From the NCBI GenBank assembly GCA_002690445.1, contig NZER01000162.1:1-11581 (forward strand): a DNA stretch of 11,581 nucleotides, read 5' to 3'. Each line of letters opens with the position of its first letter. Positions within the stretch are counted from its first letter, which is position 1. Of this stretch, positions 2 through 11,465 are shown in pieces. Position numbers and translations under genes: made by a program. Origin of the DNA: Candidatus Pacearchaeota archaeon (lineage in GTDB: Archaea; Nanoarchaeota; Nanoarchaeia; Pacearchaeales; GW2011-AR1). The notes under the pieces are model-generated. The model was not told where the DNA came from, searched no databases, and was given only the letters and a program-made list of their open reading frames with translations.

Positions 2-79
2 AGGGCAAACGATTTGTGGCACATCATGCCACCAGAGGGCTATAGCTGGGAGGATGAAAAAGTTAAAGAAATCGCTTGA
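2..79 (+). CDS. 3' end of an upstream gene (partial)
   Basis: An open frame runs in from the left edge and ends at TGA 77-79. It gives about 25 residues ending WEDEKVKEIA, preceded by DLWHIMPPEGYS. The mix of aromatic and charged residues looks like real protein, but I do not recognise the family. The stop codon lies inside the -35 box (TTGACA, 76-81) of the next gene's promoter, the same arrangement seen at the next gene junction, which supports this frame. A second frame is also open from the window edge through to 341. The strong promoter at 76-104 makes a fresh start at 111 more likely than that read-through. The 5' end lies outside the window. Confidence 0.55.
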   Translation, partial: RANDLWHIMPPEGYSWEDEKVKEIA

Positions 80-104
80 CAAAGTGACTTTCTTGTGGTA
101 TATT
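66..104 (+). promoter_or_regulatory. sigma70-type promoter P1, predicted leaderless start
   Basis: The -35 box TTGACA is at 76-81, the spacer is 17 nt, and the -10 box TATATT is at 99-104 with an extended TGG at 96-98. AAGAAA at 66-71 sits 4 nt upstream of the -35, as it does at the 373 and 911 genes. ATG 111 lies 6 nt after the -10, where +1 is expected, so the mRNA should have no leader. There is no room for a Shine-Dalgarno sequence in the transcript. The 40 nt at 75-114 match 1570-1609 at 39 positions. Confidence 0.88.
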
Positions 105-110
105 ATACTA

Positions 111-341
111 ATGATTAAGAACGGTAAAAAACAAAACGTAGTTTCCACCAACCGAAAGCAGAACATGGCAGCCGCCAAGGTGTGCGAAACCCACAACGAA
201 GCCATTGGCCTGTTTCGGGCGTTACAACACGCCAACGACATGGGAACAGGTGAAGATGATTTTGATGAGTTGGCAGAGCATTTCATCAACAAGCAAGGGC
301 TTACAGACTACTGCGAAAACGGATTCAAAGAAACCTCTTGA
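111..341 (+). CDS. small orphan protein, 76 aa
   Basis: I do not recognise this protein. It has a basic, Asn/Lys-rich N-terminus (about residues 1-18, MIKNGKKQ...), then a probably helical segment (AAAKVCETHNEAIGLFRALQHAND), then an acidic stretch (GEDDFDELAEHF). It has two Cys and no membrane segment or signal peptide. The frame stays open further upstream and an ATG exists at 54, but that start would place promoter P1 inside the gene. ATG 111 coincides with the predicted transcription start and matches six sister genes. The stop TGA 339-341 is embedded in the -35 box of the next promoter. It is likely a phage accessory or early protein, by context only. Confidence 0.75.
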   Translation: MIKNGKKQNVVSTNRKQNMAAAKVCETHNEAIGLFRALQHANDMGTGEDDFDELAEHFINKQGLTDYCENGFKETS

Positions 342-366
342 CAAACACCCTTTTGTGTGTTATATT
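328..366 (+). promoter_or_regulatory. sigma70-type promoter P2, predicted leaderless start
   Basis: TTGACA is at 338-343, the spacer is 17 nt, and TATATT is at 361-366 with extended TGT at 358-360. AAGAAA is at 328-333, 4 nt before the -35. ATG 373 is 6 nt after the -10. The -35 box contains the TGA stop (339-341) of the preceding gene. Confidence 0.88.
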
Positions 367-372
367 ATACTA

Positions 373-552
373 ATGAACAACAACAAAAGCCTACCAACCG
401 AAGCGCAGATTGTTTCAATTCGCGCCACAGCAGAAGAAGCGAGAAAATTAAACGAAAGCCTTCTCGCCAAAACAACCGTTATTAAAAAAGCGATTATTGA
501 TGATATAGAAATACCAAACGGCCCAATGTTGATAAACGGGCAATGGTGGTAG
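373..552 (+). CDS. small orphan protein, 59 aa
   Basis: I recognise no family. The protein starts MNNNKSLPTEAQIV, followed by a long amphipathic helix candidate (about residues 12-45, rich in Ala, Glu and Lys). A short tail with PNGPMLINGQWW could form a beta turn or an interaction tail. It has no Cys, signal peptide or membrane span. The start is set by the promoter at 338-366, which puts +1 at ATG 373. Upstream in-frame starts (for example 205) would run through the previous gene and this promoter. Its last 10 nt overlap the start of the next gene, suggesting one transcript and coupled translation. Confidence 0.75.
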   Translation: MNNNKSLPTEAQIVSIRATAEEARKLNESLLAKTTVIKKAIIDDIEIPNGPMLINGQWW

Positions 553-788
553 GTGTAAGGGTAGACGTGGGAGAAGAAAGAAACATTCCAGATTTTGCTA
601 TTTTTCAAAACGATAGAACGAGAGTCTCCGGCCTATGGACAAAAGAAAACGGCAAGTGGGTACAGTGTTCGGAGAGTGAATATGAGGCTATTGCTTTCGT
701 GGCTCACTTACTCAGAAGCGCATCAGACCCACAGCTTGTTTTGTCCACTATAGCGGAACAAGTTAGAAAAATGCATGAAGGCGAGTAA
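543..788 (+). CDS. small orphan protein, 81 aa, coupled to upstream gene
   Basis: I do not recognise this protein. The N-terminal half (MVVGVRVDVGEERN...DFAIFQND, then GLWTKENGKWVQC) looks like beta strands. The C-terminal half (EYEAIAFVAHLLRSA...LVLSTIAEQVRKM) looks like two amphipathic helices. ATG 543 overlaps the end of the preceding gene by 10 nt. It is the only gene before 2239 without its own TTGACA/TATATT promoter, and it has no clear Shine-Dalgarno, so it is probably translated by coupling from the preceding cistron. In-frame GTG codons just downstream (546, 567) are alternative starts. The TAA stop (786-788) lies in the left arm of a long hairpin. Confidence 0.68.
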   Translation: MVVGVRVDVGEERNIPDFAIFQNDRTRVSGLWTKENGKWVQCSESEYEAIAFVAHLLRSASDPQLVLSTIAEQVRKMHEGE

Positions 789-828
789 GTTGGCATAGGG
801 CGTGCGGCCGCGCCGATCACAACTTACT
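784..828 (+). repeat. long inverted repeat (hairpin H1) at gene end
   Basis: AGTAAGTTG (784-792) pairs with CAACTTACT (820-828), a perfect 9-bp outer stem. GGCGTG (799-804) can pair with CGCGCC (809-814), giving a GC-rich top. The stop codon of the preceding gene lies in the left arm. A related hairpin with the same outer-arm sequence occurs at 1472-1516. No T-run follows directly, so it is not a textbook rho-independent terminator. It may stabilise or process the mRNA 3' end, or bind a protein. Confidence 0.6.
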
Positions 829-836
829 ACAAAAAC

Positions 837-857
837 TTATTCATAGCCTGTGGATAA
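837..857 (+). promoter_or_regulatory. DnaA-box-like inverted pair upstream of P4
   Basis: TGTGGATAA at 849-857 is an exact reverse-strand match to the DnaA consensus TTATCCACA. TTATTCATA at 837-845 is a weaker match facing it across 3 nt (GCC). The pair ends 18 nt before the -35 of promoter P4. It could bind host DnaA, a phage repressor using a similar site, or be part of an origin; only the sequence match is seen. Confidence 0.4.
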
Positions 858-865
858 ATTTCATC

Positions 866-904
866 AAGAAAGTCATTGACAAACCCCTGTTTGTGTAGTA
901 TATT
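866..904 (+). promoter_or_regulatory. sigma70-type promoter P4, predicted leaderless start
   Basis: TTGACA is at 876-881, the spacer is 17 nt, and TATATT is at 899-904. AAGAAA at 866-871 is again 4 nt before the -35. The base pair before the -10 is TAG instead of the extended TGn. ATG 911 is 6 nt after the -10. Confidence 0.87.
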
Positions 905-910
905 ATAACA

Positions 911-1282
911 ATGAACAACGAACTGAACACCATCACCAGCCCGAAGTCTCTCGCCAATCTCATCGCCCTATGGCAGGATGAGGCTGATCGCCTTAACGCA
1001 GAGCGTACAGAGGGCGAGCAGACATGGGTAGCTACAGCCCAGAACGTAGGCTATGGCTATTGCTCTGACTACTTCAAGTATGAGGCAGACAACTGCATAC
1101 GCCCACGCTGGATGTGTGACTGGCCCGTAGAGAAGCTGGCCCACACGTACGCCACCATGTACCGGGATGTCAATGAGGCGGAAGCTCGTGAGGCTGCCCG
1201 TGAGGCAGAGGGTAATCGCAAGGTGGAGGAGGCCATGCAGTCTAGCCCAGCCTTCACCATCGGCGACCTGTGCGCGCTGTAA
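911..1282 (+). CDS. orphan protein, 123 aa
   Basis: This is the largest gene of the small-gene array. I do not recognise the family. The N-terminal part (SPKSLANLIALWQDEADRLN) is helical. A middle aromatic and Cys-containing section follows (GYGYCSDYFKYEADNCIRPRWMCDW, with C51, C62 and C69), which could bind a metal or form a small fold. Residues about 86-109 are a charged, Ala/Glu/Arg-rich helix with coiled-coil character (DVNEAEAREAAREAEG). The tail is SPAFTIGDLCAL. The coding sequence is visibly GC-richer than genes on either side, suggesting a different origin. The start is fixed by promoter P4. The stop TAA (1280-1282) lies within a TGTAAATAA element just before the next promoter. Confidence 0.78.
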   Translation: MNNELNTITSPKSLANLIALWQDEADRLNAERTEGEQTWVATAQNVGYGYCSDYFKYEADNCIRPRWMCDWPVEKLAHTYATMYRDVNEAEAREAAREAEGNRKVEEAMQSSPAFTIGDLCAL

Positions 1283-1323
1283 ATAACTTTTCTCTTGACA
1301 ATTAACCTCTTGCGTGTTATATT
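1278..1323 (+). promoter_or_regulatory. sigma70-type promoter P5, predicted leaderless start
   Basis: TTGACA is at 1295-1300, the spacer is 17 nt, and TATATT is at 1318-1323 with extended TGT at 1315-1317. ATG 1330 is 6 nt after the -10. A weak DnaA-like TGTAAATAA is at 1278-1286, overlapping the stop of the preceding gene. AAGAAA is absent here. Confidence 0.85.
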
Positions 1324-1329
1324 CTTATT

Positions 1330-1473
1330 ATGAGCAACGACCCATATAGCCAGATGACTGATGATGACCACGCTGACCTGTGTGCGTGGATAGATGACCT
1401 CGATACAGAGCCAGCCTATGATGATGAGGGTGTGAGGTGTGGGTGCGAGGATGCACCGTGTTGCGGGTGCTAG
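1330..1473 (+). CDS. 47-aa acidic protein with Cys-rich C-terminus
   Basis: This gene is short enough to be skipped by most gene finders, but it sits exactly at the predicted +1 of promoter P5 and ends at TAG 1471-1473. The protein starts MSNDPYSQMTDDDHADLC and is strongly acidic. The last 12 residues are RCGCEDAPCCGC, with C37, C39, C44, C45 and C47; C18 is a sixth Cys. The CxC-x4-CCxC cluster suggests a zinc or other metal site, or a disulfide-bonded knot. Short CxxED-PCCGC-like tails occur, as far as I recall, in other phage hypothetical proteins; I cannot name a family. The stop codon directly abuts hairpin H2. Confidence 0.78.
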   Translation: MSNDPYSQMTDDDHADLCAWIDDLDTEPAYDDEGVRCGCEDAPCCGC

Positions 1474-1516
1474 TAACTTGGCATGGAACGTGCCGCACGC
1501 CGCATGCCAACTTACT
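1472..1516 (+). repeat. long inverted repeat (hairpin H2), sister of H1
   Basis: The arm at 1472-1485 (AGTAACTTGGCATG) pairs with 1503-1516 (CATGCCAACTTACT): 14 positions with a single C-C mismatch. An inner CGTG (1489-1492) can pair with CACG (1496-1499). The outer arm shares AGTAAnTTGGCAT with H1 at 784-796. Like H1, it begins at or beside a stop codon and precedes a DnaA-like 9-mer and a promoter. It is strongly structured, but no T-run follows directly. Confidence 0.7.
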
Positions 1517-1523
1517 CGGTAGG

Positions 1524-1559
1524 ACAGCCGTTGTCCCACTGGCTGTGAATAACTTTTTT
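1524..1559 (+). terminator. possible weak rho-independent terminator
   Basis: ACAGCC (1524-1529) can pair with GGCTGT (1541-1546), and a T6 run follows at 1554-1559. The 7-nt gap before the T-run and the 11-nt loop make this weak. An alternative fold, GGACA/TGTCC (1522-1536), competes. It lies after H2 and before promoter P6, where a terminator would make sense. Confidence 0.35.
1544..1552 (-). promoter_or_regulatory. DnaA-box-like 9-mer upstream of P6
   Basis: TGTGAATAA is the reverse complement of TTATTCACA, which fits TTATNCACA. It ends 18 nt before the -35 of P6, the same distance as the 849-857 box is from P4. Confidence 0.4.
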
Positions 1560-1599
1560 AAGAAAACCCCTTGACAAAGTGACGTTCTTGTGGTATATT
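1560..1599 (+). promoter_or_regulatory. sigma70-type promoter P6, predicted leaderless start
   Basis: TTGACA is at 1571-1576, the spacer is 17 nt, and TATATT is at 1594-1599 with extended TGG at 1591-1593. AAGAAA at 1560-1565 is 5 nt before the -35. ATG 1606 is 6 nt after the -10. It is nearly identical to P1, including the spacer, which a promoter does not need to conserve. Confidence 0.88.
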
Positions 1600-1605
1600 A
1601 TACTA

Positions 1606-1821
1606 ATGAATGACAGAGAACTAAAGATGGCAGAGATGGCAGAGATGAACAAAGCCTTTGATGATTTCGACAAGGCTTGTGCCAAGGCGATTGGCGCGTG
1701 CCAAGACTTTATTGACATGGACATTAACAAGACCACCAAACCTACGCTTGAGGTACGGGATAGCACCCCGCCTATGACGTGCGAAAAAACACCGACACAG
1801 CGTGATGAGGTGGCAAATTAG
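1606..1821 (+). CDS. small orphan protein, 71 aa
   Basis: I recognise no family. The N-terminal half is an acidic, Ala/Met-rich helix (MNDRELKMAEMAEMNKAFDDFD) containing a short MAE repeat, followed by KACAKAIGACQDFIDMD with two Cys. The C-terminal third is Thr/Pro-rich and probably disordered (NKTTKPTLEVRDSTPPMTC...). ATG 1606 is at the predicted +1 of promoter P6; an in-frame ATG at 1579 would lie inside that promoter. The stop TAG (1819-1821) directly abuts a DnaA-like 9-mer. Confidence 0.75.
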   Translation: MNDRELKMAEMAEMNKAFDDFDKACAKAIGACQDFIDMDINKTTKPTLEVRDSTPPMTCEKTPTQRDEVAN

Positions 1822-1830
1822 TTATTCACA
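1822..1830 (+). promoter_or_regulatory. DnaA-box-like 9-mer upstream of P7
   Basis: TTATTCACA matches TTATNCACA. It starts right after the preceding stop codon and ends 4 nt before the -35 of P7, close enough that a bound protein could affect RNA polymerase. Its orientation is opposite to the boxes near P4 and P6. Confidence 0.4.
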
Positions 1831-1834
1831 ACCC

Positions 1835-1863
1835 TTGACAAAGTAACATTCTTATGGTATATT
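1835..1863 (+). promoter_or_regulatory. sigma70-type promoter P7, predicted leaderless start
   Basis: TTGACA is at 1835-1840, the spacer is 17 nt, and TATATT is at 1858-1863 with extended TGG at 1855-1857. ATG 1869 is 5 nt after the -10. The spacer is still close to those of P1 and P6. AAGAAA is absent. Confidence 0.86.
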
Positions 1864-1868
1864 TAGAT

Positions 1869-2093
1869 ATGACAGCAAACAAAGAGAACATCGAATTCGA
1901 CGATAATCCGTTCATCCTACCAGCGTTACTCGACAATGCAGAGCATGGTTGGCTAAACGTAAATGGAGAGATTCTCCGAATCACAAACATTCATAACTTT
2001 GATGATTTCGGAGTTGAGCAAGACACGTTAACCCTTGAGGATGGCAGAGAGTTCGTTACTCAAGACGGTGGCAGTACATTTGAGGAGATCTAG
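1869..2093 (+). CDS. small acidic orphan protein, 74 aa
   Basis: I recognise no family. The protein is acidic with a probable beta-rich fold: a lead of ENIEFDDNPFILPALLDNAEHG, then WLNVNGEILRITNI, then DTLTLEDGREFVTQDGG, resembling a small barrel or sheet. It has no Cys, signal peptide or membrane span. An in-frame ATG at 1854 lies in the promoter spacer; ATG 1869 sits at the predicted +1 and matches the sister genes. The next promoter begins 9 nt after the stop. Confidence 0.76.
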   Translation: MTANKENIEFDDNPFILPALLDNAEHGWLNVNGEILRITNIHNFDDFGVEQDTLTLEDGREFVTQDGGSTFEEI

Positions 2094-2102
2094 TCTTTAC
2101 GC

Positions 2103-2131
2103 TTGACAATGACACGCAACTGTGGTATATT
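2103..2131 (+). promoter_or_regulatory. sigma70-type promoter P8, predicted leaderless start
   Basis: TTGACA is at 2103-2108, the spacer is 17 nt, and TATATT is at 2126-2131 with extended TGG at 2123-2125. ATG 2137 is 5 nt after the -10. No DnaA-like box or AAGAAA element is seen upstream. Confidence 0.86.
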
Positions 2132-2136
2132 ACAGC

Positions 2137-2238
2137 ATGAAAGAAAACAAAGACCTCATCATTGCCAGCGTTATGTTTGGCTCAATCACAACCCTCTTGC
2201 TTGTCGCTATCTTTGTGGCAGCAGTAGAACAGATGTAA
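2137..2238 (+). CDS. 33-aa single-span membrane miniprotein
   Basis: This tiny gene sits exactly at the predicted +1 of promoter P8 and ends at TAA 2236-2238. The protein has a short charged head (MKENKD), then about 24 mostly hydrophobic residues (LIIASVMFGSITTLLLVAIF and on) and a short EQM tail. That is one transmembrane helix with almost nothing outside the membrane. A Lys-containing head suggests N-in topology. Such miniproteins in phages include holin-like, antiholin-like and superinfection-exclusion proteins, but nothing here picks among them. The dedicated strong promoter is the main evidence that it is real. Confidence 0.72.
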   Translation: MKENKDLIIASVMFGSITTLLLVAIFVAAVEQM

Positions 2239-2311
2239 CCCCCCCTTTCCAAAAAAACATTTGAGAGCAGAAAAAAACCTTGCCCCTTGTAAAACACAAA
2301 ACGAACAAACT

Positions 2312-2569
2312 ATGAAAATCAACAACTGGTACGAAGTAAGAGCAGACGGCGAAAAGGTCGCTGCGTTTGGCCCCATCTCTCGCGAAGCATCAACACAAGC
2401 CTTTAAGATTGTCGACGATACGCGAAGCGACCTGTATAGAGAAAAAGTTTTGCAAATCGTTGCCATGCCTAGCGAGGAAATCATTTTTGAGACACACCCG
2501 ACACGACTTGAGGTCGAACCACCAGTTGGATGTGTCACTTCACTTCCTTATGAGCTATTCGTGATGTAA
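2312..2569 (+). CDS. small orphan protein, 85 aa
   Basis: I recognise no family. The start MKINNWYEVRADGEKVAAFGPISREASTQ suggests a beta hairpin followed by a helix, as in small phage proteins that handle a displayed value or index. The middle has DDTRSDLYREKVLQIVAM, and the tail is hydrophobic and Pro-containing (EVEPPVGCVTSLPYELFVM). ATG 2312 is chosen over an in-frame TTG at 2261. This gene breaks the pattern of its neighbours: no TTGACA/TATATT pair lies in front of it and no clear Shine-Dalgarno is visible. It may be read from P8 or from an unrecognised promoter. It is followed by a terminator. Confidence 0.66.
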   Translation: MKINNWYEVRADGEKVAAFGPISREASTQAFKIVDDTRSDLYREKVLQIVAMPSEEIIFETHPTRLEVEPPVGCVTSLPYELFVM

Positions 2570-2624
2570 ATTCACTTTTTGGAAGCGAGCAAGACGACCA
2601 GCTAATATATAAAGACCCGCCCCC

Positions 2625-2656
2625 CCTTTTTCAGATTACAAAAAGGTGTTTTTTTT
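2625..2656 (+). terminator. rho-independent terminator closing the small-gene array
   Basis: CCTTTTT (2625-2631) pairs with AAAAAGG (2640-2646) around an 8-nt loop, followed after 2 nt by a T8 run (2649-2656). The stem is A-T rich, so strength is moderate, but the layout is classic. It separates the array from the sugar operon. A C7 run lies just before (2620-2626) and a G-rich stretch (GGGGTGGGGGG, 2665-2675) just after. Confidence 0.7.
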
Positions 2657-2760
2657 ATAAAACAGGGGTGGGGGGTAAATTTCTCTCTCCCCGAAAAATG
2701 AAGCCAAACCAATTTATAATTATTAATAAATATTTGACGAAACAGATATAACACGCAAAA

Positions 2761-2789
2761 TTAGATCTTTAAAGCTTCGCCGCTATAAT
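2761..2789 (+). promoter_or_regulatory. probable promoter of the sugar operon
   Basis: TATAAT (2784-2789) is a perfect -10. TTAGAT (2761-2766) is a weak -35 at 17 nt. Very AT-rich DNA at 2711-2733, including ATTTAT/ATAAAT arms (2712-2717, 2726-2731), could act as an upstream activating element. The first gene's ATG (2798) is 8 nt after the -10, so the leader would be only about 2 nt. It differs clearly from P1-P8, suggesting separate control. TTGACG at 2734-2739 has no -10 at a proper distance. Confidence 0.55.
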
Positions 2790-2797
2790 AGAGAACT

Positions 2798-3406
2798 ATG
2801 TACTACAGCGCAACAAGTCGAGAAGATTTCCTGAAGCACGTTCAGCCCCTTGTGGGCAAAAACAGCGTCTGCGTAGAAGTCGGGGTTGAAGATGGCTTTT
2901 TTTCTGAAATGATATTAAATGAAATTAACCCAAGACAACTATTCTTAGTAGATCCGTGGGAAGTGGGGAGCGACAAAAACTCAACAGAGAAAAGCTATAA
3001 AGAAATAGATAATCTACCGACTGCTTACAGTGATGAGAGGATGTTAGAAAAAGTAAAAGAAAAATTCTCGGATCAAATTGAAAATAACAAAATTATAATA
3101 AAAAAAGGATTTTCTTATGATATTGTAGACGAATTTCCTGACGACTTTTTTGATTTTATTTATATTGACGCATGCCATCTGTATGAAAGCGTTAAAGCGG
3201 ATTTAAAAATGTTTTTACCTAAATTAAAAGCAGGAGGCTTAATGTGTGGGCATGACTACCTTGATAAGTATGGCTTTGGGGTAGTTCAGGCCGTAAATGA
3301 ATTTGTCGTTGATAATAACTTTGAATTAATTACTCTTCATACAATTCAAGAAGGGCAATGGGGTAGCAGGATGGGCGCGGGTGATTTTGCACTAAAAAGA
3401 TTATGA
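2798..3406 (+). CDS. class I SAM-dependent methyltransferase (Methyltransf_24 type)
   Basis: This is a soluble cytoplasmic methyltransferase of 202 aa, full length for the family. SAM-binding motif I is VEVGVEDG (residues 27-33 core), with the acidic residue after strand 2 at D52 (FLVDPW). The downstream signature FIYIDACHLYESVKADL (residues 120-136) and GHDY (151-154) are typical of this family, where IDGDHxYExV and GHDY are usual; here GDH reads ACH. Family members methylate sugars or small metabolites. As first gene of a rhamnose/glycan operon it most likely methylates a sugar or a sugar-linked group, which is an inference. No Shine-Dalgarno is seen at usable distance, consistent with a near-leaderless start. 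The next gene looks like a decayed copy of its C-terminal half. Confidence 0.85.
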   Translation: MYYSATSREDFLKHVQPLVGKNSVCVEVGVEDGFFSEMILNEINPRQLFLVDPWEVGSDKNSTEKSYKEIDNLPTAYSDERMLEKVKEKFSDQIENNKIIIKKGFSYDIVDEFPDDFFDFIYIDACHLYESVKADLKMFLPKLKAGGLMCGHDYLDKYGFGVVQAVNEFVVDNNFELITLHTIQEGQWGSRMGAGDFALKRL

Positions 3407-3418
3407 AGAGCGACCGTG

Positions 3419-3775
3419 ATGAAAGTTTCGCATAAATCTTTATCCGCTTTAGAAGAATGTTTCAGAGCGATTGTAGAAAAACACGAAAAAATAGAAATAA
3501 TTAAAAAATTCGATGAAAACGCCGCTAAAGAAATCGACGATAGTAGCTTAGATGTAGTTTTTATTAAAGGAGACCAAAAAATAAAAAAAAATCTAGACAT
3601 TTGGTTTCCGAAAGTAAAATACAACGCATTTATATGTGGGAATAATTATAGAGGTGATACAAAAAAAGAAATATGTAAATTTATTATTAATTATCTCGTC
3701 AAACATGGCCCTAGGAATTGGCAAACGCCTATAAAAAGCTTTCCAGATTCAACTTGGGTATTTAGAAAAATATGA
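3419..3775 (+). CDS. half-length methyltransferase-like protein, probable remnant
   Basis: This 118-aa protein (119 if GTG 3416 is used) resembles only the C-terminal half of the preceding methyltransferase. LDVVFIKGDQKIKKNL, then IWFPKVKYNAFICGNNY, lines up with the neighbour's FIYIDACHLYESVKADL and LPKLKAGGLMCGHDY. SAM-binding motif I is missing entirely. The usual IDGDH reads IKGDQ and GHDY reads GNNY, so the expected catalytic and metal-contacting residues are changed. It is probably catalytically dead: a decayed tandem duplicate, or a fragment kept as a structural partner. The frame is intact and ends in a 4-nt ATGA overlap with rmlA. GAAGAG at 3405-3410 is a plausible Shine-Dalgarno for ATG 3419. 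Confidence 0.7.
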   Translation: MKVSHKSLSALEECFRAIVEKHEKIEIIKKFDENAAKEIDDSSLDVVFIKGDQKIKKNLDIWFPKVKYNAFICGNNYRGDTKKEICKFIINYLVKHGPRNWQTPIKSFPDSTWVFRKI

Positions 3776-4626
3776 AAGGTATAATTTTAGCTGGAGGCAA
3801 CGGAACAAGACTGTATCCGACAACACAAATCCAAAATAAAGGACTTTTGCCGGTATATGACAAGCCGATGATCTACTACCCCCTCTGCACATTGATTGAA
3901 AACGGGGTAAATGATATTTGTTTAATTACTTCGCCTGAACATATGAATAATTATAAAAATTTATTTAAAAATATTCATGAGATTGGTATAAACATGACTT
4001 TTCTGGTTCAGAAAAATCCGAATGGCATTCCTGAAGCATTTTTAATCGCTAAAAAATTTATAAAAGGAGAAAAGGTTGCTTTAATTTTAGGAGATAATAT
4101 TTTTTATGGTAGCAATGTCTTCCGAAAGGCGTTTCAGCACTTTAGATCAGGCGCTACAGTGTTTGGATATGAAGTAAATGACCCAGAGAGGTACGGGGTT
4201 ATAAACTTTGAGGAGGATGGGACTCCTATGAGCCTAGTAGAGAAGCCTGAAGACTCTAAGAGCAACTTTGCTGTACCGGGATTGTATTTATTTGATGAAG
4301 ATGTTATAAAATATACTAAAAAAATATCCCCCTCTGAAAGAGGGGAGTTAGAAATCACTAGTGTTATTAATCAATATCTTGCTTACAACAAGCTAAAGGT
4401 TTATAAGATAAATCGCGGCTGTGCATGGCTAGACGCTGGGACACCTAAAGCCTTGCAAGAATCATCAGAATACATTAAAGTTATTGAAGAGAGACAAGGG
4501 ATCAAAATTGGATGTATAGAAGAAGCTTCTTTTGTTAAAAAATTTGTAAGTAAAACACAATTAAAAGAAATAACGGCAAAAATGCCAAATAGTGATTATA
4601 AAGAATACTTAGAAAAAATATTATGA
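3772..4626 (+). CDS. rmlA: glucose-1-phosphate thymidylyltransferase
   Basis: RmlA makes dTDP-glucose from glucose-1-phosphate and dTTP, the first step to dTDP-L-rhamnose and other deoxysugars, in the cytoplasm. At 284 aa it is full length. The nucleotide-binding signature LAGGNGTRLYPTT (residues 6-18) is followed by LLPVYDKPMIYYPL (25-38), LGDNIFYG (106-113, metal-binding Asp108), FGYEVNDPERYGV (131-143), VEKP (156-159), GELEIT (191-196) and WLDAGTP (219-225). All are family hallmarks. The final ~45 residues (ERQGIKIGCIEEASF and on) match the usual RmlA end. The start overlaps the previous stop (ATGA), and its own TGA overlaps the next start the same way, so translation is probably coupled. 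The gene is AT-rich like the rest of the operon. Confidence 0.96.
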   Translation: MKGIILAGGNGTRLYPTTQIQNKGLLPVYDKPMIYYPLCTLIENGVNDICLITSPEHMNNYKNLFKNIHEIGINMTFLVQKNPNGIPEAFLIAKKFIKGEKVALILGDNIFYGSNVFRKAFQHFRSGATVFGYEVNDPERYGVINFEEDGTPMSLVEKPEDSKSNFAVPGLYLFDEDVIKYTKKISPSERGELEITSVINQYLAYNKLKVYKINRGCAWLDAGTPKALQESSEYIKVIEERQGIKIGCIEEASFVKKFVSKTQLKEITAKMPNSDYKEYLEKIL

Positions 4627-5483
4627 TATTATTATTAGGAGCAAACGGTTATGTAGCTGAAGCTTTCATGAGGAAGTTTGAAGCAGAAGGTATTGATGCA
4701 GACGCTGCCTCAAGGGATATGATTGATTATACTGATCATGATAAATTATGGCCCTTCTTAAAGGCAAACGCCGCTAATATTGATGTTTTAATTAATTGTG
4801 CTGGTTATGTTGGTAAACCTAATGTGGATACTTGTGAATTACATAAAGAAGAATGTATAAAAGGTAACGTTTTGTTACCTCATACGCTTTCTAAACTTTG
4901 TAATGAGTTGATGATTAAATTTATGCATATATCTTCCGGTTGCGTATACGGTGGGTATGAAAAAGACTTTACTGAAGAAGACCCCCCCAACTTTTGTTTT
5001 AATTCTGAGATAGAAGGCTCATTTTACTCAGGTACCAAAGCTCTCGCAGAGCAATTAATAAATAAAGAAAATTCTTGGATATGCAGGTTAAGGATTCCTT
5101 TCGATGAATATGATGGCCCCAGAAATTATTTATCTAAACTTCAAAACTATGACAGATTGTTGAGTATGAAAAACTCTGTATCACATAGAGCAGACTTTGT
5201 AGATGCTTGCACATACTTGATTCAAGAAGACTGTCCTGCTGGTATATATAATGTTACTAATACTGGCGGAGTAGACGCCGAGCAGGTATGCGCGCTCATG
5301 CGCGAGCATTTAAATATTAGCAATAATTTTAGTTTTTTTGATTCTGAAGAGGAATTTTATAAGTTTGGAGCGGTAGCTCCAAGATCTAATTGTTTATTAG
5401 ATAATTCTAAACTTTTATCCACAGGATTTAAAATGAGGGACACCGTAGAAGCTATGGAAGACTCTTTAAAAAACTGGAGATAA
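4623..5483 (+). CDS. RmlD/NRS-ER-like NAD(P)-dependent sugar reductase, possibly bifunctional epimerase/reductase
   Basis: This 286-aa enzyme is of the extended SDR (RmlD) superfamily. The cofactor loop is LLGANGYVAEAF (residues 4-15), followed by INCAGYVGKPNVDTC (57-71), ISSGCVYGG (103-111) and the catalytic YSGTK (Y135, K139). Beyond generic RmlD, the string PNVDTCELHK, the EEDPPNF segment, GSFYSGTKA, GPRNYLSKL and VAPRSN closely resemble the plant and giant-virus NRS/ER proteins. These convert nucleotide-4-keto-6-deoxyglucose to the rhamnose form by doing both the 3,5-epimerisation and the 4-reduction. The Cys and Lys I recall as the epimerase residues of Arabidopsis NRS/ER appear to be present (C107, K172). 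No rmlC is seen in this window, which fits. Start and stop are tightly coupled to neighbours. Confidence 0.85.
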   Translation: MILLLGANGYVAEAFMRKFEAEGIDADAASRDMIDYTDHDKLWPFLKANAANIDVLINCAGYVGKPNVDTCELHKEECIKGNVLLPHTLSKLCNELMIKFMHISSGCVYGGYEKDFTEEDPPNFCFNSEIEGSFYSGTKALAEQLINKENSWICRLRIPFDEYDGPRNYLSKLQNYDRLLSMKNSVSHRADFVDACTYLIQEDCPAGIYNVTNTGGVDAEQVCALMREHLNISNNFSFFDSEEEFYKFGAVAPRSNCLLDNSKLLSTGFKMRDTVEAMEDSLKNWR

Positions 5484-5484
5484 G

Positions 5485-6828
5485 ATGTGTGGTATTTACT
5501 GCTCAGACTTATCCGAGTTAAGCTCCGACTCCTTCGGAGAGAAAATCTTTAAATTAAGGGGCCCCGACTGTTTATCAAAAATAAAAATTGAAAAATTCCA
5601 CTTCTCTCATTCTTTGTTGAGTATAACCGGCAACCTAAGGTTCCAGCCATTTATTAAAGATAATATTATTTGTTTATATAATGGAGAAATTTATAACCAA
5701 AGCGATTTCGGTACTGGTTACGAAAGTGATGGAGAGTGTCTCATCGACGCTTACAAGCTGCATGGTACTCGGTTCACAAAATATTTAGATGGGGAGTTCG
5801 CTCTAGTCCTATACGATACCGTTAAAGAGCTTATATTGGTCTCTACAGACGTTTTCGGCACTAAACCTTTATACTATACCCCCACGAAAGAAAACTTCGG
5901 CTGCGGCTCATATAGAGCGATACTAGAAGAAGCTGGGCACAAACAAGTGGTTAAAATGGAGCCCAATTTAACCCGTGTGTTTTCTTCTAAAAATTATGAA
6001 TTAATAGATAGTCATAACGTATTTGATTTTGAATTAGAACAATATAAAACATCTTTTGATGATTGGCATGAAGCCTTCTCTGAGTCCATTCGTAAAAGGA
6101 CTAATAACTGTAATAAAAAAATCTTTATCGGATTGAGTAGTGGATATGACAGCGGAGTTATCTGTTGTGAGCTACTAAAACAAAAAAAAGAATTTAAATC
6201 ATACACAGTTATAGGGTCCGAAGACGAAAATATTATAAGCGCGAGGCAAACCCTCGTAGAGATGTCTGAATTCGCAGAGTATCAAAGTCTATATAAAAAT
6301 GATTCTAATTACAGCGCCTCTCATGAGTTCATAGAAAAGAATACTGAACATTATAAATATGACATTAACGCCAAAGAAAACCCCTATGATCCATGGAGAG
6401 GATGTGACTTAATTGACGATAGTGGTTCTAATTGGCTTTCCTTGGTTTGTAAGTACGCCCGCGACCAAGGATATAAAGTTCACTTATCCGGCATGGGTGT
6501 AGACGAAGTCTTTTCTGATTATGGCTTTAATGGGAATGCTTATTTACCTCATAGTAATTTCGGGGGCTTGTTCCCTGATAATCTAAAATTGATATTCCCT
6601 TGGAAAAATTTTTATGGCGGAAGCATGGAAGCTTACTTAACTAAAGAGGAATATGTGGGCGGAGCCTACGGCATGGAAACAAGGTATCCTTTCTTAGACA
6701 AGTATGTGGTCCAAGAGTTTCTTTCTTTAGATAAAGACCTTAAGAATTCTTATTATAAGTCCGTATTATATGATTATTTAGAAGAGAAACGTTTCCCTTT
6801 CAGGAAAGATCAAAAATTAGGATTTTAA
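5485..6828 (+). CDS. asnB: AsnB-type glutamine-hydrolysing asparagine synthetase / amidotransferase
   Basis: The N-terminal class II glutamine amidotransferase domain starts MCGIY, with the catalytic Cys2, and carries RGPD (25-28), NGEIYN (66-71), SDGECL (81-86) and DGEFAL (102-107). It releases ammonia from glutamine. The C-terminal ATP-dependent synthetase domain has the pyrophosphate loop LSSGYDSG (217-224, usually LSGGLDSS), LSGMGVDEVFSDYG (334-347) and METRYPFLD. At 447 aa it is much shorter than the usual 550-650, although both active sites look present. In polysaccharide loci such proteins are thought to amidate sugar acids or amino-acid substituents; making asparagine itself is the alternative. 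GGAGA (5476-5480), inside the end of the previous gene, is a good Shine-Dalgarno for ATG 5485. Confidence 0.9.
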   Translation: MCGIYCSDLSELSSDSFGEKIFKLRGPDCLSKIKIEKFHFSHSLLSITGNLRFQPFIKDNIICLYNGEIYNQSDFGTGYESDGECLIDAYKLHGTRFTKYLDGEFALVLYDTVKELILVSTDVFGTKPLYYTPTKENFGCGSYRAILEEAGHKQVVKMEPNLTRVFSSKNYELIDSHNVFDFELEQYKTSFDDWHEAFSESIRKRTNNCNKKIFIGLSSGYDSGVICCELLKQKKEFKSYTVIGSEDENIISARQTLVEMSEFAEYQSLYKNDSNYSASHEFIEKNTEHYKYDINAKENPYDPWRGCDLIDDSGSNWLSLVCKYARDQGYKVHLSGMGVDEVFSDYGFNGNAYLPHSNFGGLFPDNLKLIFPWKNFYGGSMEAYLTKEEYVGGAYGMETRYPFLDKYVVQEFLSLDKDLKNSYYKSVLYDYLEEKRFPFRKDQKLGF

Positions 6829-6829
6829 A

Positions 6830-7558
6830 ATGAAATTAGATTATAGCTTATATATGACAGATAAAGGCACGTTCCATACTTACATGGATTTTTATGAAGA
6901 AGTTTTTGCCATATACGATAATGTTCCTGTTGATTTTTTAGAAATAGGCGTGGCGTGGGGTGGCAGCTTAAAAATGTGGAAAGACTTTTTTGCGGAAGGT
7001 AGTTCGGTTTCTGGAGTAGAAAATGAGGCTGGGATCTCCTATGGATTTGAGGGCCCCTTTAGAGATACGCAGATTACTGATTTCCGATACATTCCTTCAA
7101 GTTTGGCAGGAGAAGGAAAAATGAGTCTTGAGGGAGAAGAGCTTGCCAAAATGTACGATGACAATATTGCTGGATGCAACATTTATAAAGACGATGCTCG
7201 AGTGGTTCAAATAGATAAAACATTTGATATCATCATTGATGATGGAAGCCATGTATTTGACGACGTAGTTGTTACTATTAATAATTTATGGAAAAATTTA
7301 AAACCGGGAGGGATTTATATTGTAGAAGATGTCTACGCCTTGGACGGGAAAACCGGGGCCAACGGTTGGTATTGGGGAGATCTGCATGATGGAAGTTTTT
7401 GTGGGAGCCAAGGGTCTTGGAAAGATGAAATGAAAAAGAGAGTTGGGTTAGAATACGAAATCGTTGACAGAAGAGAAATACTCAATAAATTCGGAAATAC
7501 GAACAGCATAGACGAAGTTTTACTTGTCTTCAGGAAACCTGAGAATGGCCCATGTTAA
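6830..7558 (+). CDS. SAM-dependent methyltransferase, sugar O-methyltransferase-like
   Basis: This is a 242-aa class I methyltransferase. The N-terminus YMTDKGTFHTYMDFYEEVF (residues 8-26) resembles the DKGxxHxYxxxYExxF lead-in of macrolide and rhamnose O-methyltransferases (MycE, ElmMI and relatives). SAM motif I is LEIGVAWGGSLKMW (37-50), IIDDGSHVFDD (135-145) carries the likely metal-binding acidic pair, and PGGIYIVEDV (159-168) is motif-III-like. The tail contains Trp/Gly-rich GANGWYWGDLHDG. These relatives methylate sugar hydroxyls, often on rhamnose, which fits a dTDP-rhamnose operon; substrate choice is an inference. The start is preceded by TTTTAAAATG with AGGA 8-9 nt upstream. It is distinct from the methyltransferase at 2798. 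Confidence 0.85.
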   Translation: MKLDYSLYMTDKGTFHTYMDFYEEVFAIYDNVPVDFLEIGVAWGGSLKMWKDFFAEGSSVSGVENEAGISYGFEGPFRDTQITDFRYIPSSLAGEGKMSLEGEELAKMYDDNIAGCNIYKDDARVVQIDKTFDIIIDDGSHVFDDVVVTINNLWKNLKPGGIYIVEDVYALDGKTGANGWYWGDLHDGSFCGSQGSWKDEMKKRVGLEYEIVDRREILNKFGNTNSIDEVLLVFRKPENGPC

Positions 7559-7570
7559 CAAGATTTTAAA

Positions 7571-8512
7571 ATGCCATCAGCACAAAGAACATCCGAGAGA
7601 ACGTTTGCGGAAGAAGGGTATGTACCGGCATACATGCGCAACGGTGGAGAAAAAAGGAACTGCCCAATCGTAGTTTTAGGGTGGCTTTCTTATGATATAA
7701 TAAAAGCGTGTTTAAATTCTATCAATCTTCTTGAAGGGGTAAACCCGCAGATTTACTTTGTCGAAAATCAAAGTAAAAATTCCGACAAAATTAAAGAGCT
7801 CGTCCTATCTACTCCAAACGTAAAAGGGTACATCCAGTATAAAGAAAATTTCGCAGCCAACGTTTGGAAAACGTCACTAGATCATTTTCTGCCCCAAATT
7901 GATGAAGAGTTTATAACTATAACAGATGGAGACTACATATTTAGTGTAGACGCCATGACTTCGCAATACGAGCTATTTGATCAGGATGATCAAGTGGGGG
8001 TAACTTCTCAAAGAAGATCTTTCGTGGGACTTCATGGTATTGGACATAAGCCAAATTCTATTAAACTTGTTTATGATATATGGATTGGCCAAAATACCAC
8101 AGAAGTAATAAGCCCACTTTTAAGCAGATGCACCTTTAATTCTATGCTTCTTACCACAGCAAGGAAGAGCGATTGGCTAAAATTTATCGACTGCATACAG
8201 AACAGACATGTAACAATGAGCACTCATGCGCTCGCAAACCGTAACGAAGAACAATGGAGGCCTCCTCTTTTTGCTGACGCAGATTTATATAAATTTTTTG
8301 AAATTGTTTTAACTAAAAAGTCTTTAGTATATTCTGGGTTTCCAGCTTATCACTTAACTGATGAACACGACGTTGATCCAAAAAGCGAATACTCGATAGA
8401 AAAAGAAAAATTCAACTACCAAAAATCTTGGGGGGATTACGAAAATAACTATGAATTTTATCATAATAAGTTTTATGCTGATGGAAGTCTAAAATTCACC
8501 GAAATAATATAA
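7571..8512 (+). CDS. GT-A type glycosyltransferase, first of a tandem pair
   Basis: This 313-aa protein is probably a glycosyltransferase. After a ~30-residue lead comes a Rossmann-like start (CPIVVLGWLSYDIIKACLNSI), then IYFVENQSKNSDKIKELV, and the DxD-type metal motif TDGDY (D119, D121) expected of GT-A enzymes. The C-terminal half has WRPPLFADADLY, AYHLTDEHD and a tail FYHNKFYADGSLKF. No membrane span is seen, so it should act in the cytoplasm on a lipid-linked or protein acceptor, presumably adding rhamnose or another sugar made by this operon. It is clearly paralogous to the next gene. No obvious Shine-Dalgarno is present; TTTTAAAATG spans the start. Sugar donor and acceptor cannot be told. 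Confidence 0.75.
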   Translation: MPSAQRTSERTFAEEGYVPAYMRNGGEKRNCPIVVLGWLSYDIIKACLNSINLLEGVNPQIYFVENQSKNSDKIKELVLSTPNVKGYIQYKENFAANVWKTSLDHFLPQIDEEFITITDGDYIFSVDAMTSQYELFDQDDQVGVTSQRRSFVGLHGIGHKPNSIKLVYDIWIGQNTTEVISPLLSRCTFNSMLLTTARKSDWLKFIDCIQNRHVTMSTHALANRNEEQWRPPLFADADLYKFFEIVLTKKSLVYSGFPAYHLTDEHDVDPKSEYSIEKEKFNYQKSWGDYENNYEFYHNKFYADGSLKFTEII

Positions 8513-8516
8513 GCTA

Positions 8517-9542
8517 ATGAAAGACCATCCAAACGAAGATTCGTGGAATTCAAGGCCTGTTACTTATCATGATGTTACAGAGCTTATTCCGGAAGAAAGA
8601 CGCTCTGACTTTGATTGGAAGAAGGACGAAACAATCAGGCCTTTTTCTGTTATAGCCTTGTGTTGGTTAGAGCCTAAGATTCTAGAAAGGTCTCTCGCCT
8701 CCATAAACAGGCTTGAACGAGTGAAGCCAAAAATTTATATAGCCGAACAACAAAGTAAAAACTCTGACCGAATGAAAGACCTGATACTTTCTTCTGAAAA
8801 TGTTGAAGGCTATATACAAATGAAAGAGAATTGGGCTGCTGCCTCATGGAAGATTATAATGGAGCACTTCTTGCCTCAAATAGATGACGAGTTCGTTACG
8901 ATCACAGATGGAGACTACATATGGGATTTTTATGCTATGGATAGGCAATACGACTTGTTTCAAGCTCACGAAGATATTGGGATAGTTTCCCAAAAAAGAT
9001 CCTTACTAGGTGTATCAGGGTACTGGAAACAAGCGATAATGCAAGGGCACACCATGGCAACAATACCCGACGAAAGAAATACGGAAACAGCATATGGCGA
9101 AGTGGGCGCAGCTAGAATAGCGATAAACGGAATGAACCTTACTACCGCAAGAAAAAAAGACTGGGAAAAATATATAGATATTATAAATACCAAAAGTATA
9201 TCTTTTGGAACCCACCGAATAGGGGAACCTTGGGTGCATGAATATAGACCTCCTGTATTTTGGGATATTGATTTATATCCATTTTTTGAAAACGTTTTTA
9301 AGAAAGCTAGCTTTGTTATAGAAGAGAACACTTCTTACCATATTACAGACGAATACGAGAATGATCCAGAAAGCGAATATGCAATTGAAAAAAAGGTCTA
9401 CGGATCAGCCGAGGACAATCGTGGTGGGAAATTCGATGGGGAATGTTATCATTCTCATTGGAGAGATTACCAAAAAGATCCTGACTATTTTCATAATAAA
9501 TTTTATGATAATGGCGAGCTAAAATACAACGTAATTATATAA
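8517..9542 (+). CDS. GT-A type glycosyltransferase, second of a tandem pair
   Basis: This 341-aa protein is homologous to the preceding one along its length. In a 59-residue stretch from QSKNSD to TDGDYI plus two residues, I count 40 identities by hand. The DxD motif is TDGDY (D131, D133). It shares PPVFWDIDLYPFFE, SYHITDEYE and the tail DYFHNKFYDNGELKYN. It is longer by an N-terminal extension (MKDHPNEDSWNSRP...) and an insertion near the C-terminus (KKVYGSAEDNRGGKFDGEC). The pair probably arose by tandem duplication, and the differences after the DxD motif suggest different donors or acceptors. It starts 4 nt after the previous stop with no visible Shine-Dalgarno. Confidence 0.75.
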   Translation: MKDHPNEDSWNSRPVTYHDVTELIPEERRSDFDWKKDETIRPFSVIALCWLEPKILERSLASINRLERVKPKIYIAEQQSKNSDRMKDLILSSENVEGYIQMKENWAAASWKIIMEHFLPQIDDEFVTITDGDYIWDFYAMDRQYDLFQAHEDIGIVSQKRSLLGVSGYWKQAIMQGHTMATIPDERNTETAYGEVGAARIAINGMNLTTARKKDWEKYIDIINTKSISFGTHRIGEPWVHEYRPPVFWDIDLYPFFENVFKKASFVIEENTSYHITDEYENDPESEYAIEKKVYGSAEDNRGGKFDGECYHSHWRDYQKDPDYFHNKFYDNGELKYNVII

Positions 9543-9561
9543 TAAAGCGCGCAGTTTTAAA

Positions 9562-10533
9562 ATGAAAAAACGTACATTAATAATATACGCAATATATAAA
9601 GAATGCCTTGAGACTCATTACTTTATGGATAATGGCGTGAAATACGACAAAGACGTAGACTACATGTTTGTTGTAAATATTGACGGCTTTTCCTTGAAAT
9701 CAGAGGTAGACAGCAAGACTAACCCTTCTTTTTTCTCCCCATCGGAAAAGTTTGGTAACGCTCTTGAAGGTGTTAGCGCTAAATTAATGATGAGAGATAA
9801 TGTCGGGCGTGATTTTGGCGGGTATTCTTGTGTTGTAGATCGTCTTGTCTCAAACGGGTTGATTAATGAATATGATTATTTTGTTTTTTTAAATCAAACC
9901 GTTACGGGTCCCCTTTTCCCTCGTTGGTACGATAACAAACGTCATTGGTCTAACTTATTTACTGACCTAATAAACGAAAAAGATAAACTAATAGGAGCTA
10001 CGATAAACTGTTATGGAAGGATGAAAGGAGATCAGCCCAAGGACCCACGTATAGGTTCTCATTTAATATGGGACAATTATAAGGAGCCAACTATGGATGA
10101 TACTCATCCGTGGGCACCACACGTGCAGTCATTTTGTTTTGCCATGGATAGAACAGCGATAGAAATAGCAATAGATAATAATATATTCGATTACAATAAC
10201 ATTGTAGATGATTACCCGTCAATCGTTGTAGAAAAAGAAATGCGCCTTTCTGAGGTAATGCTAAGCAACGGTTACAATATCGCATCTTTACTAGACTGCT
10301 CTTACGGTATAGACTTCAGAGGAGTTAATCACGGGAAAGAAGCCAGAGAAAGGGGCTGGCAACCTTGGAACGATATATATTGTCACGCCTATTTTGATGA
10401 AAAATGCCACCCGTATGAAACAGTCTTTGTAAAAAGCAATAGGTCCACGAATGCGCCGGGCGTCCGAAGCCCATTCCATACTGCAAGATTTATGAAATGG
10501 AAAAAAAACCAAAAAGAAAAAAGAAAATTATGA
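9562..10533 (+). CDS. RgpF-like rhamnan-synthesis/glycosyltransferase protein
   Basis: This 323-aa protein resembles the rhamnan synthesis F (RgpF) family. It begins KKRTLIIYAIYKECLETHYF, a short Rossmann start, then VDYMFVVNIDGF. The hallmark is RDNVGRDFGGYSC (residues 78-90), equivalent to the (D/E)NxGxDFGAY motif of RgpF-like proteins. YDYFVFLNQTVTGPLFP (104-120) is followed by HWSNLFTDLI, again as in that family. Known RgpF proteins help build polyrhamnose, which matches the rml genes beside it. The C-terminus is very basic (KWKKNQKEKRKL) and could contact membranes or nucleic acid. The TGA overlaps the rmlB start (ATGA). I am fairly sure of the superfamily, less so of the exact reaction. 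Confidence 0.72.
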   Translation: MKKRTLIIYAIYKECLETHYFMDNGVKYDKDVDYMFVVNIDGFSLKSEVDSKTNPSFFSPSEKFGNALEGVSAKLMMRDNVGRDFGGYSCVVDRLVSNGLINEYDYFVFLNQTVTGPLFPRWYDNKRHWSNLFTDLINEKDKLIGATINCYGRMKGDQPKDPRIGSHLIWDNYKEPTMDDTHPWAPHVQSFCFAMDRTAIEIAIDNNIFDYNNIVDDYPSIVVEKEMRLSEVMLSNGYNIASLLDCSYGIDFRGVNHGKEARERGWQPWNDIYCHAYFDEKCHPYETVFVKSNRSTNAPGVRSPFHTARFMKWKKNQKEKRKL

Positions 10534-11465
10534 ACTTACTAGTAACAGGAGGATGCGGGTTTATCGGCTCTAATTTTATAGAGTACGTTATAGATAAAAA
10601 ACAAATTTGCAAGCTTGTTAATGTTGACTGCTTATCTTACGCGGGGTCTTTAGACAACACAAAAAGCTTTCACAAACATTCAAAGTACCTTTTGGAAAAA
10701 TATGATTTATCAAATTATAACAAGGTCTATGACACCTTTTATAAACATGACATTACTCATGTAGTTCATTTTGCCGCCGAGTCTCACGTTGATAATTCCA
10801 TCAAGGGGTCTAAGGAATTCGTTGATTCTAATATCGTCGGCACTCACGCTTTATTAGAAGCTGCAAGAAAATTTAAAGTAAGATTCCATCATGTTTCTAC
10901 AGACGAAGTTTACGGTGTCGCAAAAGACGGAGAGAGGTTTTCTGAAGACACCCCTTATGACCCAAGAAATCCCTATTCAGCGACAAAAGCCGCATCAGAC
11001 TTTCTGGTAAAGGCGTACGTTAACACGCACGGAATCAAAGCAACAATCTCCAACTGCTGTAATAATTATGGCCCAAATCAACATGGAGAAAAATTTATAC
11101 CCGTAGTAATTAACTCTTTGCTGGACGATCAACCTATTCCTGTATATGGGAAAGGAGATCAGGTTAGGGATTGGATTTACGTAGACGATCATTGTTCTGG
11201 GGTATGGAAGGTGCTTACTAAGGGCAAAATTGGAGAAACCTATTTAGTTGGTTCAGACTGTGAAAAAACTAATTTAGAAATAATTACTGAGCTTTGTAAA
11301 ATATTAAAAAAGGACCCTAATGAATATATTTCGTTTGTAGAAGACCGTCCGGGTCATGATTTCAGGTACGCTATAGACAGCTCAAAAATAAGAAAAAAAC
11401 TAAAGTGGAAATCAAAAATAAACTTAAAACAAGGACTCAAAAAAACGGTAAAACATTATGCATGA
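10530..11465 (+). CDS. rmlB: dTDP-glucose 4,6-dehydratase
   Basis: RmlB turns dTDP-glucose into dTDP-4-keto-6-deoxyglucose, the second step of the rhamnose pathway; it is an NAD-dependent extended SDR. Residues: TGGCGFIGS (6-14) cofactor loop, FAAESHVDNS (81-90), STDEVYG (123-129, with catalytic T124/D125/E126), YSATK (Y149, K153), NNYGPNQ (178-184) and RDWIYVDDH (213-221). All are RmlB signatures. At 311 aa it is slightly shorter than typical 330-360-aa enzymes, mainly at the C-terminus. ATG 10530 is chosen because the protein then starts MNLLVTGG as usual and overlaps the previous stop by 4 nt. An in-frame ATG at 10497 would add a Lys-rich 11-residue lead read from the end of the previous gene. 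Confidence 0.95.
   Translation: MNLLVTGGCGFIGSNFIEYVIDKKQICKLVNVDCLSYAGSLDNTKSFHKHSKYLLEKYDLSNYNKVYDTFYKHDITHVVHFAAESHVDNSIKGSKEFVDSNIVGTHALLEAARKFKVRFHHVSTDEVYGVAKDGERFSEDTPYDPRNPYSATKAASDFLVKAYVNTHGIKATISNCCNNYGPNQHGEKFIPVVINSLLDDQPIPVYGKGDQVRDWIYVDDHCSGVWKVLTKGKIGETYLVGSDCEKTNLEIITELCKILKKDPNEYISFVEDRPGHDFRYAIDSSKIRKKLKWKSKINLKQGLKKTVKHYA

Follow-up and report, generated by a model that had tools for sequence, protein, structure and literature searches.

Sigma70-type promoters placed directly before the start codons of small genes form candidate leaderless cassettes in a group of uncultured phages

Results

The stretch analysed here, referred to as the window, comprises 11,581 nt (contig NZER01000162.1 of assembly GCA_002690445.1, filed under a Candidatus Pacearchaeota archaeon). 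It opens with an array of small open reading frames (ORFs), seven of which are each led by a sigma70-type promoter ending only a few nucleotides before the ATG. A strict promoter was defined as an exact TTGACA-N17-TATATT, and the offset as the number of nucleotides from the end of the -10 hexamer to the ATG. Seven strict promoters are present, all on the forward strand, at 76..104, 338..366, 876..904, 1295..1323, 1571..1599, 1835..1863 and 2103..2131, and they precede the ATGs at 111, 373, 911, 1330, 1606, 1869 and 2137 with offsets of 6, 6, 6, 6, 6, 5 and 5 nt. The seven TTGACA-N17-TATATT-N5-6-ATG units reported in an earlier reading of this DNA (the original prediction) are thus all exact. 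Dinucleotide shuffling of the window (200 shuffles) yielded a mean of 0.01 exact copies and at most one, as compared to the seven observed, and the exact-motif scan returned no further copy in 2132-11581. The TG one base before the -10 hexamer that defines an extended -10 is found at six of the seven promoters, the exception being the one at 876.

The genes behind these promoters, all on the forward strand, have relatives in other sequence records (G numbers, presented below). The first ORF (111..341, 76 amino acids (aa)) belongs to a family beginning with MIKNGK, with homologs in G002, G005 and G036 (84-86% identity) and in G030 (55%), and its TGA stop codon lies inside the -35 hexamer of the second promoter. 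The ORF at 373..552 (59 aa) aligns from residue 1 with homologs in G001 (60%) and G005 (58%). Homologs were also recovered for the ORFs at 1330..1473 (47 aa, DPYSQMTDDDHA family; G002 70%, G005 84%), 1606..1821 (71 aa; G001, 69% identity) and 1869..2093 (74 aa; G002, 62% identity). For the 123-aa product of 911..1282, neither viral contigs nor the promoter-led ORFs included in the comparison yielded a relative, and the 33-aa ORF at 2137..2238 had no homolog among those ORFs. No informative Pfam or PHROG family was matched by the seven promoter-led proteins. Two small genes of the window lack a promoter of their own: 543..788 (81 aa, forward strand), which overlaps the end of 373..552 and is the second gene of a two-gene unit, and 2312-2569.

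A motif scan of viral contigs led to five related contigs, G001 to G005, with 6, 16, 13, 13 and 18 strict copies, respectively; within each contig all copies lie on one strand, and the reversed pattern was not found. The spacing between promoter and start codon was then counted in 14 pieces, drawn from 12 records with the window among them, that together hold 110 strict promoters. G001-G005 had been found with a pattern that contains the ATG, and G008, G017, G027 and G030 via an ATG-containing search; G035 and G036 are the only records chosen independently of the ATG, by the core sequence of an RNA described below. The count omits one of the 16 strict copies of G002, which straddles a piece border, takes the first 8000 of the 17082 bases of G030, and leaves out G031 and G034 (no strict copy), G010, G032 and G033 (one each), and G007, G009 and G025 (one ATG-linked match each).

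An ATG begins 5-9 nt past the -10 hexamer in 98/110 strict promoters, with a sharp maximum at 6 nt (15 at 5 nt, 62 at 6 nt, 14 at 7 nt, 3 at 8 nt and 4 at 9 nt). Offsets of 5-7 nt account for 91/110, and the 5-8 nt range expected of leaderless genes for 94/110. The remaining 12 comprise one GTG at 6 nt, six apparent RNA genes without an ATG, four with a later ATG and one other. Split by source, the window and the G001-G005 pieces gave an ATG at 5-9 nt in 64/72 (with one GTG, three RNA-gene-like cases and four ATGs at 14-15 nt), and six further pieces in 34/38 (with three RNA genes and one copy without a near ATG); in the ATG-independent records G035 and G036, 16 of the 18 strict promoters are ATG-led. 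Promoters with other -10 hexamers (n = 26) have the ATG at 6 nt in nine cases and at 7 nt in seven. The extended -10 TG is present in 100/110 strict promoters, and the consensus over 64 copies reads aAaaaa.ttaaaaAaA.CcC TTGACA..TGTGtTATATT. The view that promoter and start codon form a single unit therefore stands insofar as the unit is repeated, and has to be relaxed insofar as it is not invariant (GTG, 14-15 nt offsets, RNA genes); the many further copies before small genes that the original prediction called for are indeed found in related phages. At G003 17643 and 17900 (L130) and G004 11389 and 11646 (L137), an in-frame ATA or ATT occupies the usual place of the ATG, which follows 9 nt on; these sites are possibly decayed or non-AUG leaderless starts.

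That the unit might be common in viral DNA was considered and rejected: at least 120 stretches contain TTGACA-N17-TATATT-N5,6-ATG, and none listed has more than two copies. The number of ATG-linked copies per stretch is 3 to 9 in L121-L125 and 7 in the window. A stricter motif gave four single matches in genome contigs, in metagenome-assembled genomes titled gut or rumen bacteria.

The promoter-led ORFs have the properties of real genes. At least 45 codons are reached by 92% of them, versus 15% of the frames after 2991 antisense ATGs. They range from 25 to 265 aa with a median of 71 aa, and group into 26 families and 23 singletons. The description of the array as a set of small proteins holds for most of them (79/98 have at most 100 aa) and fails for the longest. 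In 33/40 homologous pairs the alignment begins within the first three residues of both proteins (21/28 without the sibling pair G003/G004), and in a larger set this holds for 57/85 (47/75 without G003/G004). Differences within codons 2-13 are distributed 50/25/82 over the three codon positions, with the third position favoured, among 32 pairs that are not independent.

Sequences around the start codons were then examined for signs of leaderless expression. A 4-nt Shine-Dalgarno (SD) match precedes 3/98 promoter-led ATGs (2/64 in a smaller set) and a match of 5 nt or more none, so the predicted absence of this signal is nearly complete. The first 40 nt of the mRNAs fold at -1.8 kcal/mol, as compared to -7.0 kcal/mol for positions +61..100, and in 79/98 cases their folding is weaker than that of shuffled versions of the same sequence (mean -1.8 vs -2.9). 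An A is found at +4 in 96% of the promoter-led genes. Translation from the promoter-adjacent ATGs, as predicted from sequence, is supported by the length of the ORFs, their N-terminal homology, the bias in codon positions, the lack of SD and the weak 5' folding. In the usual sigma70 geometry, RNA synthesis starts 7 nt past the -10 hexamer, and a start one base earlier falls within the usual range. With a start at 7 nt, +1 coincides with the A of the ATG in the five 6-nt cases of the window, and in the two 5-nt cases this A lies one base before +1. The predicted +1 is on or beside the AUG, hence a leaderless mRNA, with a leader of 0 to about 2 nt, is the best reading of these sequences.

Six strict promoters without an ATG near +1 seem to drive RNA genes, which indicates that the promoter itself does not include the ATG. 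A shorter RNA, starting with GTTCGTGAGGG, was seen behind a strict promoter at L135 16928 (reverse-complement coordinate), L229 3723 and L230 11552. In its G027 copy, the first base of the terminal stem lies exactly 7 nt after TATATT; in the G002 copy the stem begins at the same distance, or as much as 2 bp closer to TATATT if upstream bases are included. As an independent indication of +1 these stems are modest, only one of the three copies being clear. A tRNA-Thr (11727-11802) lies downstream of the shorter RNA in L230, and ARAGORN called a transfer-messenger RNA with its tag peptide in the same phage contig, G017 (L230 15830-16257).

A long structured non-coding RNA, estimated by eye at ~470-560 nt in G002 and G005, sits behind a strict promoter without an ATG in G002, G005 and G036. 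It was located at L135 ~6850-7321 (reverse strand), in L125, L127/L128 and L226, in L130 near 14840, in L137 near 8796 and in L221-L225, and its core GAAAGCCCCTAGTGGA..TAGACGGTGA occurs in 10 IMG/VR contigs. It shows a tRNA-like acceptor pairing and T-arm, and modules parted by CAATTTA-like linkers; the GUUCUUUGA start of some copies is boxA-like. The long RNA stretches searched had no Rfam match at the gathering score, only two weak ones at chance level (E 0.8 and 1.3), and ARAGORN called nothing in them.

Gene orders and promoter sequences were compared between contigs. Homologous genes (27 pairs, without G003/G004) share on average 0.71 identity over their first 100 nt, 0.57 in the promoter spacers and 0.44 in the upstream 30 nt; for non-homologous pairs (n = 1979), the values are 0.46 for spacers and 0.39 upstream. 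Identical 14-nt spacers before unrelated genes were found in 6/1979 pairs, three of which share one spacer, and one gene pair with 91% identity over its first 100 nt has only 50% in the spacer and 30% upstream. The stop codon of the MIKNGK-family gene is a TGA within the next TTGACA in four records, each with a different next gene, and in G001 the end of such a gene at the contig edge is followed by a fifth different gene. Because the link between a promoter and its gene is loose, and because one gene has, in five records, five different successors joined at the promoter, the promoter-plus-gene units look like exchangeable cassettes, which may have been swapped among related phages.

Two further elements accompany the promoters. 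An imperfect palindrome occurs on the forward strand of the window at 784..828 (AGTAAGTTGGCAT..AACTTACT), between a stop codon and the next promoter, and again at 1472..1516 (AGTAACTTGGCATG..GCATGCCAACTTACT). This hairpin element has 19 copies in the window, G001, G002 and G005 pieces, mostly between stop codons and promoters, and 16 of them lie 23-55 nt before a -35 hexamer. As judged by eye, it is unlikely to be an intrinsic terminator, no T-run following the copies. GC-rich GGGCCCGGGCC-like palindromes were noticed by eye at the corresponding position in G003/G004. The second element is a 9-nt box that resembles the DnaA-box consensus. It lies in the window at 849..857 (reverse strand, TTATCCACA; forward strand TGTGGATAA) upstream of promoter 3, at 1544..1552 (reverse strand, TTATTCACA; forward strand TGTGAATAA) upstream of promoter 5, and at 1822..1830 (forward strand, TTATTCACA), where 4 nt separate it from the downstream -35 of promoter 6. 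In L230, upstream boxes were seen by eye as dyads or pairs such as GTGAATAACTTGAATAAGTTCAC (promoters 3541, 9757, 11552, 13911 and 15016), an arrangement that points to a regulator acting as a dimer or to DnaA boxes in pairs.

The window most likely derives from an uncultured tailed phage, since G030 carries both a G003-like terminase (75% identical to that of G003) and the 55% identical homolog of the first gene of the window. This is the direct link; the window DNA itself had no match in phage records. Phage gene names derive from G003 alone, which encodes terminase, rIIA/rIIB-like, PhoH-like and tail-fibre-like proteins. A terminase search of viral contigs returned 76 loci, among them those of G003 and G004, and TTGACA-N17-TANNNT-N5-7-ATG occurs at least once in 7/25 terminase-bearing records searched. 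The G003 terminase has a T4-like Pfam match, yet its best tblastn matches listed are Bacillus phages at ~25% identity, and kinship of these phages to T4 is remote or unclear. Among the matches listed for the gp88-like protein of G003 are Xanthomonas, Pelagibacter, Limnohabitans and Stenotrophomonas phage proteins (46-48% identity), from which no host was called. Beyond the array, the window carries a sugar-nucleotide/glycan gene cluster (2798-11465) with matches to NTP transferase, RmlD-like, asparagine-synthase-like, Methyltransf_24, RgpF-like and GDP_Man_Dehyd (dehydratase). The order of six of its genes is conserved in G001, and that of two or three in each of G002, G005 and G036 (39-77% protein identity). 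Within the cluster, TTTTAAAATG precedes the starts at 6830, 7571 and 9562.

Discussion

We propose, with a probability of about 0.8, that these phages carry self-contained cassettes in which a sigma70 promoter places +1 at the AUG of a leaderless mRNA, and which are exchanged by recombination at the promoter. Each cassette would combine a UP-like tract rich in A (in some cases with a TTATTCACA box), a sigma70 promoter that is nearly perfect and mostly of the extended -10 form TTGACA-N14-TGN-TATATT, and an AUG at the RNA start. The AUG would be placed where the host RNA polymerase begins, mostly 6-8 nt past the -10 hexamer, and the mRNA would be translated from its 5'-terminal AUG without an SD. 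Since no signal needed for expression lies beyond the AUG, recombination between near-identical promoters could then swap one gene for another, which would account for small-gene turnover among related phages and, presumably, for the mosaic gene orders. From these sequence features we infer the transcript start, leaderless translation with 70S initiation, use of the host polymerase and early expression; the host-takeover role suggested in the original prediction would be a further step of the same kind.

Several observations limit this proposal or weigh against it. The evidence for the array is carried by the exact copies, since the motif with up to three mismatches occurs 26 times in the window against a shuffle mean of 24.0 and is not above chance. 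TATATT without a properly placed TTGACA also peaks, weakly, at 6 nt (10/133 vs 0-8 elsewhere), perhaps because of units with an imperfect -35. Four strict copies, at two loci in two sibling contigs, have their ATG only at 14-15 nt, and one has none nearby. With a 5-nt offset, a start at 7 nt loses the A of the AUG, and the proposal then requires a start at 6 nt. The lack of SD does not set the array apart, because these phages show little SD anywhere: it precedes 51/172 (30%) of the other ORFs taken from their first ATG versus 202/812 (25%) of internal Met codons. Weak 5' folding is partly a matter of composition (GC content 0.41 vs 0.51), and the first 60 nt of the G017 copy of the shorter RNA do not form a terminal stem at +7. 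Some ORFs could also be translated, through read-through from upstream, from the upstream in-frame starts at 54 and 1854 of the window. As for exchange, promoter spacers may just evolve fast, and the shuffling argument is weaker for distant pairs.

The ATG could be a mere preferred initiating sequence of a strong promoter, with translation beginning at a downstream codon. Some genes do have in-frame ATGs soon after the first (in the ORF at 1606, MNDRELKMAEMAEMN), and in 28/85 homologous pairs the alignment starts further in than the N-terminus, a further point against our proposal. This explanation appears very improbable, as the promoters of the six apparent RNA genes lack an ATG near +1, which places it outside the promoter, and most pairs are homologous from their first residues, with a codon bias in codons 2-13. 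Leadered messages were also considered, the array being transcribed mainly as a polycistron from an upstream promoter, with SD-independent or coupled initiation and a minor part for the internal promoters. The scarcity of SD throughout these phages, the overlap of the MIKNGK-family stop with the next -35 in four records, and a consensus scan that found no forward-strand terminator between the array genes of the window would fit such a scheme. It is nevertheless improbable: a near-perfect promoter is kept at nearly every cassette and would presumably not persist unused, and the sharp offset peak (62/110 at 6 nt) is left unexplained.

The promoters might alternatively be ordinary T4-like early promoters, whose closeness to the ATG reflects genome compaction and leaves functional leaders of a few nucleotides, no special leaderless mechanism being involved. 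Their make-up of UP, -35, TGn and -10 elements is that described for T4 early promoters (PMC2988021). We consider this unlikely, since compaction would scatter the offsets, 91/110 of which fall at 5-7 nt, and the transcripts would in any case be functionally leaderless. A different proposal, compatible with the cassettes, assigns the TTATTCACA boxes to host DnaA or to a phage regulator with a similar site, making the array a co-regulated regulon instead of a set of constitutive early genes. The region within 60 nt upstream of strict promoters makes up 3% of bases and holds 36/73 copies of TTATNCACA, as compared to 2.2 expected; the box is found at 32/110 promoters, with 4 nt as its commonest gap to the -35. 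As 78/110 promoters lack the box and have TTATTAACA or plain A-tracts instead, and as the box copies share ancestry, such regulation is possible but on balance doubtful. Returning to the cassettes, a fuller version can be put forward only tentatively, at somewhat less than even odds: an accessory region of plug-in units bordered by the AUG, in which each unit joins a UP tract and, in part of them, a DnaA-like box to an extended sigma70 promoter whose +1 falls on the start codon, would let a single promoter crossover capture and express a gene without leader or ribosome site; structured RNA genes, of which one ends like a tRNA, would be fired by the same promoter from the same +1.

Elements of this organization are known from other systems. 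Middle and late transcripts of the Thermus phage phiYS40 are leaderless, according to the review PMC3594737. Many phage genes on leaderless mRNAs are thus common to both cases, here as a prediction; phiYS40 differs in its phage and host group and in the use of middle and late genes, as opposed to a strict sigma70 consensus before small accessory genes. In cluster O mycobacteriophages (Corndog), the SigA promoters PL1 and PR2 are predicted to be leaderless and PL2 is similar (PMC4351075), in contrast to 13 ATG-led copies within one 20-kb piece of G005. Cluster K mycobacteriophages carry start-associated sequences, SAS (GGGATAGGAGCCC) and ESAS (PMC3203893), which likewise form a repeated element directly before many gene starts, in part with an upstream inverted repeat. 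The SAS, sought with up to two departures, was not found, at least five mismatches remaining within 40 nt before all 98 ATGs, and the repeated element here is the promoter. In Deinococcus-Thermus, a -10 element a few bp before the ORF yields leaderless mRNAs (PMC12340547); those are cellular genes with TANNNT, whereas full -35/-10 promoters in phages are involved here. A passing remark in PMC5312081 that phage transcripts are often leaderless covers such mRNAs generally, without an array of promoter-start units. Leaderless transcripts are also described as resistant to kasugamycin (PMC5230787).

A parallel for the promoters themselves is given by the early promoters of T4, with their UP, -35, TGn and -10 elements (PMC2988021). 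Strong host-type promoters with the same elements are found here. T4-type mobile regulatory cassettes were reportedly described by Arbiol et al. in 2010. In T4, a hairpin lies near the promoter and genes are shuffled at the promoter; possible counterparts here are the 19 hairpin copies, 16 of them near a -35 and without a T-run, and the mosaic gene orders. T4 early mRNAs have leaders with an SD, in contrast to the present units, in which the AUG is fused to the promoter. A literature search whose coverage excluded most subscription papers found no paper on such a promoter-start array. Phage genes without leaders and promoter cassettes of the T4 type are each known already, and what is new is their combination at this scale.

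If transcripts begin at these AUGs, the phages would possess a dense set of leaderless genes. Gene prediction biased towards longer ORFs could assign such genes a wrong start, as with the upstream in-frame starts at 54 and 1854, and the aligned promoters and RNA genes supply ready material for testing leaderless initiation in groups other than Actinobacteria and Thermus. There would also be a simple reason why the leaderless design could be favoured, a gene that needs only a promoter being the easiest module to exchange.

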